A program made the position numbers and the translations under genes. This document shows, one piece after another, positions 22,921 to 27,666 of a stretch of 64,000 bases of DNA (positions are counted from its first letter, which is position 1; each line of letters opens with the position of its first letter). This stretch comes from Verrucomicrobiota bacterium (GTDB lineage Bacteria > Verrucomicrobiota > Verrucomicrobiia > Chthoniobacterales > UBA10450): NCBI GenBank assembly GCA_003219175.1, contig QHPU01000050.1:1-64000 (forward strand), read 5' to 3'. A model generated the notes under the pieces. That model was not told the origin of the DNA. It ran no database searches and worked only from the letters and a program-made list of their open reading frames with translations.

Positions 22921-24747
22921 GTGCCCGACCGCCCCGGCAGGGTCGCGCGGCGGCATCTTGTGAAAAGCGTCCTCTTCGTTTGTACCGGTAATGTTTGTCG
23001 CAGTCCCATTGCGGAAGGTCTTTTTCGCCGTCTCTTGGGAAATCGCAAGGACATTGAAGTGGCTTCAGCCGGAGTGCACGCCGTGCGAGGACAGCCGCCC
23101 AGCTCGCATGCGATTGACGTTTGCACTGAGGAAGGGACAGAAATTGGCAACCTGCGGAGCCAACCGCTTACCGGAGCACTCGTCGAACGCGCGACACATA
23201 TTTTCGCCATGACTGGAGCACATGTCGAAGCAATCCAGATGCTTTTTCCAAATGCAGCCGACAAGACTTTCTTGCTACGTGAATTTGAAGAACCCGGTGC
23301 GACTTGCTGGCGCGACGTGCCGGATCCTATCGGCCTGGGACGCGATGTTTATAATACCTGCGCAGAGACGATCAAAAACGCCTTGCCGAGCGTGCTCGCT
23401 TTTGTAGAAGAGAGCGAAGTAGCCGTGCGTCCCGGCGGACGTAGCGGCGGTGCTTCCATCTATATCGTGAGCGACGTTTCGCATCCCACTCCATCAATCC
23501 TCGGAGCTCCGAGTGGCGGATTGCGCAAGGTCGACCCGGAAGTTTTTGACGCGATTGAGGCGGAAGAAAGACGGCAGCGCGAAAATATCGAGTTGATTGC
23601 CTCGGAAAATTTCACCAGTCGGGCGGTGATGGAAGCGCAAGGGAGCGTACTGACTAACAAATACGCTGAAGGCTTGCCAAAGAAACGTTGGTATGGCGGC
23701 TGTGAGAACGTTGACATAGTCGAGCAACTCGCGATCGATCGCGCGAAGCGTCTCTTCAATTGCGAACACGTCAACGTGCAACCGCATAGCGGTGCGCAAG
23801 CCAACATGGCCGTTTATTTTTCGGTGCTGAAACCGGGCGACAAAATTCTCGCCATGAATCTGGCACACGGCGGCCATCTCACGCACGGGCATCCGGCAAA
23901 TTTCTCCGGCAAGTTTTACAACGTCTCGCAATACGGCGTATCGGAGAAAACCGAGCAGATCGATTACGATGCGCTGCAAAAACAAGCCGAGGAAGTGAAG
24001 CCGGCGATGATCACCGCCGGCGCCTCCGCGTACCCGCGCATCATCGAGTTTCCGCACTTAAGGCAAATCGCCGATTCGGTCGGCGCACTGCTTTTCATCG
24101 ACATGGCCCACATCGCCGGGCTCGTTGCCGGCGGACAACATCCGAGTCCGATCCCGCACGCGCATTTCGTCACGACGACCACGCACAAAAGTTTGCGTGG
24201 CCCACGCGGCGGCATCGTGATGTGCGAAGAAAAATTCGCGAAACAAATCGACGCGACCGTGTTTCCCGGCGTTCAAGGTGGACCGCTAATGCATGTCATT
24301 GCGGCCAAAGCGGTTTGTTTTCGCGAAGCCCTTCAGCCGCAGTTCCGCGATTATCAGCGCCAAGTTGTAGTCAACGCGAAAGCGCTTGCCGCCGGTTTGG
24401 CCAAACACGGGTACCGCATCGTCAGCGGCGGCACCGACAATCATCTCATGCTGGTAGACCTTCGTCCGAAAGAATTGAACGGCAAAGAAGCACAGGAAGT
24501 TCTCGATCGCGCCGGCATTACCGTGAACAAAAACGCCATCCCGTTCGACACCAGTTCGCCGTTCAAACCCAGCGGAATTCGTGTTGGCACCCCGGCGGTG
24601 ACGACACGCGGCATGCGCGAAGAGGAAATGCTCGAGATTGCGGACTTGGTCGCAGAAGCATTGCAGAATCGCAATGACAACGCCGCGCTCGAACGCGTTC
24701 GCGGCAAGGTGCGCAATCTGACGCGCAGATTTCCGCTCCCGAGTTAG
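22921..24747 (+). CDS. glyA: Single ORF: N-terminal low-molecular-weight protein phosphatase fused to serine hydroxymethyltransferase
   Basis: [21 protein letters not shown]-loop with downstream DVPDPIGLG acid motif, then about 35 aa linker, then [31 protein letters not shown]...[11 protein letters not shown] (PLP Lys). No stop between domains. Confidence 0.92.
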
Positions 24748-24849
24748 GGCAAGCGGCATGTTTCCGGGGAAAGCATGCGAGGCGCGTGCGCTCCCCGAAC
24801 AAACGATTCGTGTTATCTAATCTGCGAAAATCTGCGTAATCTGCGGATT

Positions 24850-26394
24850 ATGACGAACCGGTCGGCTGAGCAAGGAGTCAATCCATTGCGCGAAGGTTTG
24901 AGCACGCGGGCTGTGCCGCAGCCATGCGCGATCGTCATCTTCGGCGCGACCGGAGACCTGACGCATCGGAAATTGATTCCGGCCTTATACAACCTTGCCG
25001 CTGATGGTGAGCTGCCGCCAGCGGTAGCCGTCGTTGGTTTCGCCCGACGCCCCAAAACCGGCGACGAATTCCGAAACGAACTCGGCGAAACAACAAAGCA
25101 ATTTTCGCGTCAGGAGGTCCGTGATGATATTTGGAAAACCTTTTCGCAATCGCTCTCTTATCACCAAAGCGAATTCGAGGACGAAAGCGGTTATCGATCA
25201 TTGGTCAAACGGCTCGATCAACTCGACGAAGAACGCGGCACGCGCGGCAATCGTTTGTTTTATTTCGCAGCGGCGCCGGAACAATTCGAGCCCATCCTGA
25301 AAAATCTTAAAGCAGCAGGATTGAGCAAAGCGAAAGAAGGCAGCTGGGCACGCGTCATCATTGAAAAGCCGTTTGGGCGTGATCTCGCTTCTGCGCAGGA
25401 GTTAAATCGGGTCGTATCCAATTCTTTTTCCGAAGATCAGACCTATCGAATCGATCACTTTCTCGGGAAAGAAACCGCGCAGAACATTCTGGTTCTCCGT
25501 TTTGCTAACGCGATTTTTGAACCGATCTGGAACGCGCGTTATATCGATCACATCCAGATCACCGCGGCCGAAACCCTCGGCGTCGAAGGGCGGGCCGGTT
25601 ACTACGAAACCGCCGGTGCCTTGCGCGACATGGTGCAGAATCATTTGCTGCAATTGCTTTGCCTGGTGGCGATGGAAGCGCCCACCGATCTTAGCGCCGA
25701 CAGCATTCGCGATGAAAAGGTAAAGGTCGTGCGCTCGCTGCGTCGTTATCGTCCGGAAGAAATCACGAAATGGGTTGTGCGCAGCCAGTACACCGTTGGC
25801 GCGATTAATGCCGAACCCGTTCCAGCCTACCGCGAGGAAGAAAAAGTGAACCCGAATTCTGAAACCGAAACCTACGTCGCGCTTCGCCTGCTTCTCGATA
25901 CCTGGCGCTGGTCAGAGGTGCCGATTTACTTGCGGGTCGGGAAACGTCTCCCCAAATCCGCCACTGAAATTTCGGTGCACTTTAAGAAAGCGCCCATGGT
26001 CCTGTTTAATCGCGACAGCGCCGAGCATGATCAAAACGTCCTCGTCATTCGCATCCAACCCGATGAGGGAATTTCGTTGCGCATGATGGCAAAGATTCCG
26101 GGGACGAGTTTGCGAATCGAACCGGTGAAGATGGATTTTCATTATGGCACCAGTTTTGGGAAGGCGAGCCCGGAAGCGTACGAACGTTTGTTGCTCGACG
26201 CCATGAGCGGCGACGCCACCCTTTTTGCCCGCCGCGATGAAGTCGAGGAGGCCTGGGGATTTATCGACACCATTGAAAGCGCTTGGAGCAACAAAGATGC
26301 ACCTCCACTGACATATTATCCTGCCGGTTCGTGGGGACCGGAGGAAGCAGACGAACTTCTCGCGCGCGATGGACGCACATGGAGACGCTTGTGA
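24850..26394 (+). CDS. zwf: Glucose-6-phosphate 1-dehydrogenase
   Basis: AIVIFGATGDLTHRKLIPALYNL; RIDHFLGKETAQNILVLRFAN. Start at 24850 is preferred because the upstream extension encodes an AATCTGCG-type repeat. Confidence 0.96.
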   Translation: MTNRSAEQGVNPLREGLSTRAVPQPCAIVIFGATGDLTHRKLIPALYNLAADGELPPAVAVVGFARRPKTGDEFRNELGETTKQFSRQEVRDDIWKTFSQSLSYHQSEFEDESGYRSLVKRLDQLDEERGTRGNRLFYFAAAPEQFEPILKNLKAAGLSKAKEGSWARVIIEKPFGRDLASAQELNRVVSNSFSEDQTYRIDHFLGKETAQNILVLRFANAIFEPIWNARYIDHIQITAAETLGVEGRAGYYETAGALRDMVQNHLLQLLCLVAMEAPTDLSADSIRDEKVKVVRSLRRYRPEEITKWVVRSQYTVGAINAEPVPAYREEEKVNPNSETETYVALRLLLDTWRWSEVPIYLRVGKRLPKSATEISVHFKKAPMVLFNRDSAEHDQNVLVIRIQPDEGISLRMMAKIPGTSLRIEPVKMDFHYGTSFGKASPEAYERLLLDAMSGDATLFARRDEVEEAWGFIDTIESAWSNKDAPPLTYYPAGSWGPEEADELLARDGRTWRRL

Positions 26395-26401
26395 TTAAAC
26401 C

Positions 26402-26597
26402 GTCATTCCGAGCGGAGCGAAGCGAAATCGAGGGATCCCGCCATGTTTCCTTTAAGGTTTCGCCACGGGATCCCTTTCGTGGCGCAGGCTTCCAGCCTGT
26501 GGGGCAAGCAGGCGTCTCGCCTGCGGCTGGTTTCGACAGGCGTGACGCCTGTCTGCCCCACAGCCGAGGACGGCTGCACCACGCCGCTCGGGATGAC
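26402..26597. repeat. Composite dispersed repeat: outer GTCATTCCGAGCG...GGGATGAC arms with nested AGGCGT..CGCCT palindromes
   Basis: Outer arms match elements at 30836-30919 and 49513-49627. Nested GGCAAGCAGGCGTCTCGCCTGCGG and ACAGGCGTGACGCCTGTCTGCCCCACAG. Confidence 0.8.
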
Positions 26598-26607
26598 CAT
26601 AAATTGT

Positions 26608-27666
26608 ATGCCTGCGCCAGCTGAAACCATTTCTCTCGGTCTTCCGGTCGCGATCGATCGCATCGATCGCGGGCTGAAGAAGCTTTGGAGTGAAAGCGAA
26701 GGCGCGATGACACGTGCCTCAATGATAAATCTCGCAGTTTACAGCGAAGAACCTGATTCGCTTACACAAAACACGCAGTTGCTGGCGCGAATCGCCGAGA
26801 ATCATGCCTGCCGAGGTATCGTGATCGGCGCCAATCCGCATTCGAAAAATGATCGCATCGAGGCGTGGATTAGCGCGCATTGTCATGTTGGTCGCGCCGG
26901 CACCAAACAAGTCTGCTCGGAACAGATTTCATTCTTGCTCGAAGGCGCAAAGGTAAAGCTGCTTCCCAGTATCGTTTTTTCCCAGCTCGATTCCGATCTC
27001 CCACTTTATCTCTGGTGGCAATCCAAATTCGCCGAACCGATGGATCCACAGCTTTGGTCGTGGATCGATCGATTGATCTACGACAGTCAAACCTGGCGTG
27101 ACTTCAACGCGCAAATGCGACTGGTCGAGACGGCACAGCGTGAAGCCAAACAACGCATCGTCCTGTGTGATTTGAACTGGACTCGGCTCGTTCATTTTCG
27201 CGTCGCTTTTGCACAGTTCTTCGACCATCCGAGTTCGCATCATCATTTCCGGGAAATTGAGAGCGGTACGATTGTGTTCGGGAAAAATTTTCGCTCAACC
27301 GCGATTCTCTTTATTGGCTGGCTCGCTGCGCAATTGGGCTGGGAAGTTCGGAATGGAAAGAATGGAGATCATATCGAATTGGAAAATTCGACGAGGAACC
27401 GAGTGAAGATCGACTTGCAGGAAAATGGTGATGCACCCATTGGCTCTTTCGTCGCGCATTCTAGCGACGTAAAATTTGAGATCGCACTCGCACGCTGTGG
27501 CGACCTGCTCGAAGTCTCCCGCTCTAAATCGGATCAGTCTCCGGCACGCCAGCTCCTTCCGGCAGGGGAAAACGATTCCGTAAAATTGATGAGTGAAGAG
27601 CTGATGCGAGGAGGACAACGGCGTGTTTACCTTCGCGCCCTCGAGAAAGTGCGCGATCTTTTGTAG
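26608..27666 (+). CDS. opcA: Glucose-6-phosphate dehydrogenase assembly protein OpcA-like
   Basis: Directly downstream of zwf; SINLAVYSEE-like N-terminus and LPSIVFSQLDSDLPLYLWWQ motif. The start at 26608 avoids translating the repeat. Confidence 0.85.
   Translation: MPAPAETISLGLPVAIDRIDRGLKKLWSESEGAMTRASMINLAVYSEEPDSLTQNTQLLARIAENHACRGIVIGANPHSKNDRIEAWISAHCHVGRAGTKQVCSEQISFLLEGAKVKLLPSIVFSQLDSDLPLYLWWQSKFAEPMDPQLWSWIDRLIYDSQTWRDFNAQMRLVETAQREAKQRIVLCDLNWTRLVHFRVAFAQFFDHPSSHHHFREIESGTIVFGKNFRSTAILFIGWLAAQLGWEVRNGKNGDHIELENSTRNRVKIDLQENGDAPIGSFVAHSSDVKFEIALARCGDLLEVSRSKSDQSPARQLLPAGENDSVKLMSEELMRGGQRRVYLRALEKVRDLL

Follow-up and report, generated by a model that had tools for sequence, protein, structure and literature searches.

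A low-molecular-weight protein phosphatase (LMW-PTP) fused to serine hydroxymethyltransferase (SHMT, GlyA) is encoded as one gene by a soil bacterium of the Verrucomicrobiota (order Chthoniobacterales), on the forward strand of the 64,000-nucleotide stretch of DNA analyzed here (hereafter the window). Judged from sequence comparisons, this composite gene appears to be the remnant of a collapsed LMW-PTP–RpiB–SHMT operon, and we consider it probable that it has been kept as a two-product gene yielding both the fusion and free SHMT. The features concerned are:

22921–22959, + strand: in-frame extension 5' of the conserved start, probably untranslated; unconserved, pN/pS 0.88.
22960–24747, + strand: composite gene, long form (LMW-PTP, linker predicted to be disordered, SHMT); 595 aa, 64.6 kDa; GTG at 22960 kept in 61/63 sequences.
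22969–23388, + strand: LMW-PTP domain (PF01451); 97.3 bits, pN/pS 0.21.
22981–23007, + strand: P-loop CTGNVCRSP, position 5 being Val; C, T, G, N, C, R, S, and P invariant in 35 aligned fusions.
23323–23334, + strand: general-acid motif DPIG; D and P invariant in 35 fusions.
23413–23520, + strand: interdomain linker, predicted disordered; pLDDT below 50 at residues 155–185, pN/pS 0.71.
23467–23469, + strand: internal GTG, proposed second start, for free SHMT (426 aa, 46.5 kDa); aligned start codons, ATG excess, RNA unfolding.
23521–24747, + strand: SHMT domain (PF00464) with stop codon; 565 bits, and 656 bits to SHMT model NF000586.
24187–24189, + strand: codon of the PLP-binding Lys (TTHKSLRG); invariant in 35 fusions.
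24775–26394, + strand: zwf (glucose-6-phosphate dehydrogenase) ORF, just downstream; probably co-transcribed.

The window holds a single stop-free frame from 22921 to 24747 (+), and both domains are recognized by Pfam within its 608 codons (LMWPc at residues 17–156 with 97 bits, the PF01451 cut-off being 23 bits; SHMT at residues 201–576 with 565 bits), as is SHMT by NCBIfam (NF000586, 656 bits). The LMW-PTP part has the C(X)5R(S/T) loop and the Asp-Pro general acid, and the SHMT part is a full-length PLP fold with the TTHKSLRG lysine; the 35 aligned fusions all share the residues of the catalytic loop, the general acid, and the PLP lysine. The initial annotation had described an uninterrupted 608-codon LMW-PTP–SHMT frame with the CTGNVCRSP loop, the DPIG acid motif, and the PLP lysine; the open frame, the two domains, and all three motifs are present as stated, but the length is not. 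Among 63 distinct aligned sequences, nearly all from the family of the window's bacterium, 61 have GTG and one has ATG at 22960, the residues upstream of it cannot be aligned, and the first 13 codons (22921–22959) evolve almost neutrally (pN/pS 0.88). Thus, the conserved start at 22960 gives a protein of 595 rather than 608 aa. An AlphaFold2 model of the 595-aa chain (mean pLDDT 83, pTM 0.65) comprises two mostly confident folds (residues 1–151 and 186–595) separated by residues 155–185 with pLDDT below 50, by which the linker is predicted to be disordered. In the bacterium's own genome (3.24 Mb, 166 contigs, 90% complete) the composite locus is the sole match to the window protein at E ≤ 0.001, and the only LMW phosphatase found there sits on SHMT.

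Of the family's sampled genomes, nearly all have the fused frame, at 76–94% identity. Across 63 relatives no linker contains a stop codon in frame 0, compared with 36 linkers that do in frame +1 and 38 in frame +2, and pN/pS is 0.21 for the LMW-PTP part vs. 0.71 for the linker. On this comparative evidence the fusion gene is kept by selection, its open frame being shared with relatives and both of its halves being constrained. All 80 named loci retained in a scan with the window protein belong by title to Verrucomicrobiota (mostly metagenome-assembled, and including Spartobacteria, Chthoniobacterales, and Udaeobacter). The claim that the fusion is real is borne out by the search of related genomes, in which the architecture is found across the family and repeatedly in its order, Chthoniobacterales. 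A missed stop or an indel joining two genes during sequencing or assembly could be suspected from the predominance of metagenome-assembled genomes and from a few broken family members; this explanation has next to no probability, given that the 116 loci sharing the fused frame come from many studies and vary in linker length, and an assembly artefact is ruled out by these independent genomes. The broken members comprise one with a stop in SHMT, one with a frameshift in SHMT, one with a run of N, and one with a frameshifted linker. In a 1.7-Mb genome of the order (L169), LMW-PTP and SHMT are split again and out of frame.

A survey of SHMT, RpiB, and LMW-PTP architectures, covering Verrucomicrobiota, used domain models built in this analysis (L, R, and S for LMW-PTP, RpiB, and SHMT, respectively; a slash marks a gene boundary). 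A cluster of the three enzymes is present in the phylum, RpiB and SHMT mostly form a single gene, and fusions of all three (triple fusions, LMW-PTP–RpiB–SHMT) occur repeatedly. The SHMT-holding loci comprise L-S (116), L/R-S (44), L-R-S (30), R-S (25), L/S (17), and a few others, in a sample picked by similarity to the window protein and with some genomes counted twice. In the 149-row tree of SHMT, L-S rows are interspersed with those of L-R-S and R-S, and at least five changes involving L-S are required by its well-supported branches; family f21 (L168) arrived at the L-S state by a different route. The RpiB of five triple fusions (L069, L155, L159, L160, and L166) has lost catalytic residues while the domain still lies between the other two enzymes, which by sequence is as expected of a domain being lost. 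Four triple-fusion genomes (G041, G045, G046, and G050) have no other RpiB and no RpiA that could be found, so their fused RpiB is likely the working enzyme. All L-S genomes with a completeness of 90% or more and a contamination of 5% or less possess a stand-alone RpiB, or else RpiA (G039 and G053).

In the RpiB tree, a branch with a support of only 78 separates all 24 stand-alone copies from the 100 copies that are fused or clustered, and on this separation the idea that RpiB had moved elsewhere rather than been replaced was rejected. The window lineage appears to have lost the middle RpiB, with an unrelated RpiB elsewhere in the genome substituting for it. Because the stand-alone RpiBs group apart and L-S genomes own another isomerase, it is probable that this other isomerase rendered the middle RpiB dispensable and that the domain was then deleted, on more than one occasion. 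In Bacillus subtilis the neighborhood is ywlE, ywlF (rpiB), ywlG, and glyA; it holds the three enzymes in the order of the verrucomicrobial LMW-PTP–RpiB–SHMT cluster, as separate genes, whereas in the window lineage they are fused and RpiB is no longer in between. The suggestion that the fusion is a collapsed neighborhood of this kind is upheld, every intermediate being found in the phylum, with the refinement that RpiB was lost from between the domains. Living relatives thereby display a series from operon to fusion: separate genes, partial fusion, triple fusion, a decaying middle domain, and loss of the middle. In 26 of 30 loci of the family, zwf comes next after SHMT on the same strand; thus, the gene has kept its pentose-phosphate surroundings. 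In the window, zwf and an opcA-like gene lie directly after SHMT (24775–27666). In families f20, f22, and f26 (L178, L180, L183, and L185), RpiB adjoins SHMT unfused, an arrangement from which the series may have started. Family f17 (L054, L055, L056, L060, and L071) has LMW-PTP and SHMT as separate genes, often in the same frame and parted by one or two stops; regulated read-through was considered there and rejected, since by a hand count about 12 of 34 are in frame, which agrees with the one third expected by chance, and the examples had been selected by score.

An alternative offered at the outset was that glyA starts at an internal GTG, placed at 23468 (the correct coordinates are 23467–23469), and that two genes are merely in frame without a stop. 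In the alignment column of this codon, within a linker of pN/pS 0.71, ATG occurs in 49, GTG in four, and TTG in two of 62 sequences; a start codon is missing from the aligned site in 8/63, and most of these have an ATG in the same frame within the next few codons. The internal start is therefore in frame and better conserved than the remainder of the linker. In one member of a reduced-genome lineage (L039, f8), no start was found in the linker. In non-redundant L-to-S linkers, ATG counts are 61 in frame vs. 17 and 2 in the other frames (binomial p about 5e-15), and at the L-to-R junction of triple fusions 29 vs. 5 and 0 (p about 6e-10), p-values that ignore the relatedness of the sequences. 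The in-frame count shares the codon-usage bias of the frame, for which the R-to-S junction of triple fusions is a partial control, with 5 vs. 7 and 1 (p about 0.45). By these counts, start codons have been kept behind LMW-PTP and not at the RpiB–SHMT boundary. The alternative thus holds insofar as the codon is conserved as a start and a second product is indicated, whereas "merely in frame" does not fit a frame that has stayed free of stops in a linker that evolves quickly.

Around the internal start the RNA is predicted to fold weakly (a mean of −7 kcal/mol over windows of 50 nt, compared with about −15 in the flanks), and so it is at the first start; lower G+C accounts for part of this effect. 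A Shine–Dalgarno-like motif was sought at the internal start and discarded as a signal, since 101 of the 116 linkers have no start preceded by one. Such motifs precede only 4 of the 38 long ORFs in the window, compared with 9% of random positions, so the absence of one at 23467 carries no weight. The bases before the internal start (23452–23469) are conserved too and rich in pyrimidines, and in 47/62 sequences the second codon before the start encodes Tyr, which hints at another constraint on the site.

It is unlikely, in our assessment, that the fused protein is the sole product and that the internal start is an unused relic of the former rpiB or glyA start. The continuous frame, the 101 linkers mentioned above, and the AlphaFold2 prediction that both domains fold well in one chain are consistent with that explanation, and the internal Met/Val could be what is left of an old glyA or rpiB start that decays slowly. 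Against it, starts are kept at the aligned site of a nearly neutral linker, interchange among ATG, GTG, and TTG, and are mostly shifted rather than lost, and the R-to-S junction retains no such start. The converse, in which translation of SHMT begins essentially at the internal start and the read-through fusion is a tolerated by-product, accords with the conservation of that start and with the local unfolding of the RNA, and we hold it to be quite improbable: no stop has re-formed in the linker within the family, although the other frames often have one and a by-product would be expected to be lost occasionally, and the LMW-PTP half, for which the fusion is the only outlet, is under purifying selection.

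Under the two-product reading that we favor, initiation at GTG 22960 would give the 64.6-kDa fusion, in which an LMW-PTP with an intact active site is tethered to SHMT by the linker of predicted disorder, and initiation at the conserved internal start (GTG 23467; ATG in most relatives) would give a free 46.5-kDa SHMT. We infer that both products are made, and likewise their ratio. There is no stop between the domains, so the phosphatase would be made solely attached to SHMT, and SHMT could be made in excess of it; SHMT oligomers, which presumably assemble normally with the phosphatase arm, would then carry a minority of such arms. Retention of an old start codon inside the frame suggests a way for a fusion to escape forced 1:1 stoichiometry, and "glyA" start sites in the phylum may be miscalled.

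Among bacterial genes, infB, clpB, and cheA have an internal start that is in frame and conserved; the extra N-terminal part is not known to be an unrelated enzyme in any of them. The window gene resembles them in that one frame would give two products differing N-terminally and differs in that its extra part, LMW-PTP, is an unrelated enzyme. Relative to bacterial SHMT (GlyA; e.g., PDB 1kkj), the window protein has the full-length domain with its catalytic motifs, whereas its long form bears an N-terminal phosphatase arm. Fusions of operon neighbors are already known as a kind; the window gene is set apart from them by the internal start that it retains between two unrelated enzymes and by a middle partner whose loss could be traced. 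No description of an LMW-PTP–SHMT fusion was found in the literature searched, in which journal coverage was partial, and database records may already name such proteins.

Among solved chains, those closest to the LMW-PTP domain are an LMW-PTP deposited as RpiB (PDB 4egs), which is the best match, and then YwlE, well ahead of PtpA. The name of the 4egs entry suggests that an LMW-PTP–RpiB fusion exists elsewhere; that protein is presumably joined to RpiB rather than SHMT, and has Thr at P-loop position 5. By sequence, the closest named relatives are the YwlE/PtpB arginine phosphatases. In its own genome, the window's bacterium encodes a cognate arginine kinase, McsB (PF00217, 215 bits), between an mcsA-like gene and clpC. 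PF00217 was matched in 56 of 58 relatives; the control search missed Bacillus subtilis, which is expected to encode McsB, so the negatives of this search are not trustworthy. A BY-type tyrosine kinase scores above the cut-off in only 17 of 29 genomes, the window's own genome not being among them. Given these distributions, neither kinase settles the substrate of the phosphatase. The reduced 0.9-Mb lineage f8 has kept McsB together with a fused phosphatase that has Thr.

At P-loop position 5, the window protein has Val rather than the Thr of YwlE-type arginine phosphatases; Ile or Val is found in most L-S members, and Thr in about half of the L/R-S members. Thr at this position, which selects pArg over pTyr, favors pArg, and Ile favors pTyr, in YwlE and PtpB (PMC8001253); the rule as taken here covers Thr and Ile. 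The expectation that Tyr-type specificity is likelier is weakly favored by Val/Ile at position 5, and is countered by the nearness of YwlE in sequence, by the McsA–McsB–ClpC locus with the wide occurrence of PF00217 in relatives, and by the limited occurrence of the BY-type tyrosine kinase; the substrate may be either pTyr or pArg. It is a doubtful, speculative idea that the fused LMW-PTP is the counterpart of McsB despite the Thr rule, its place on SHMT linking arginine dephosphorylation to one-carbon metabolism, with dosage set via the internal start. The Thr/Ile selectivity rule for arginine phosphatases becomes testable in a second phylum with McsB. The mcsB gene of the window's own genome (L270:3718–4692, contig C96) lacks, in frame, about 50 codons after RAFPGW relative to that of a family relative (L271:3619–4743), which could be a real deletion or an assembly collapse.
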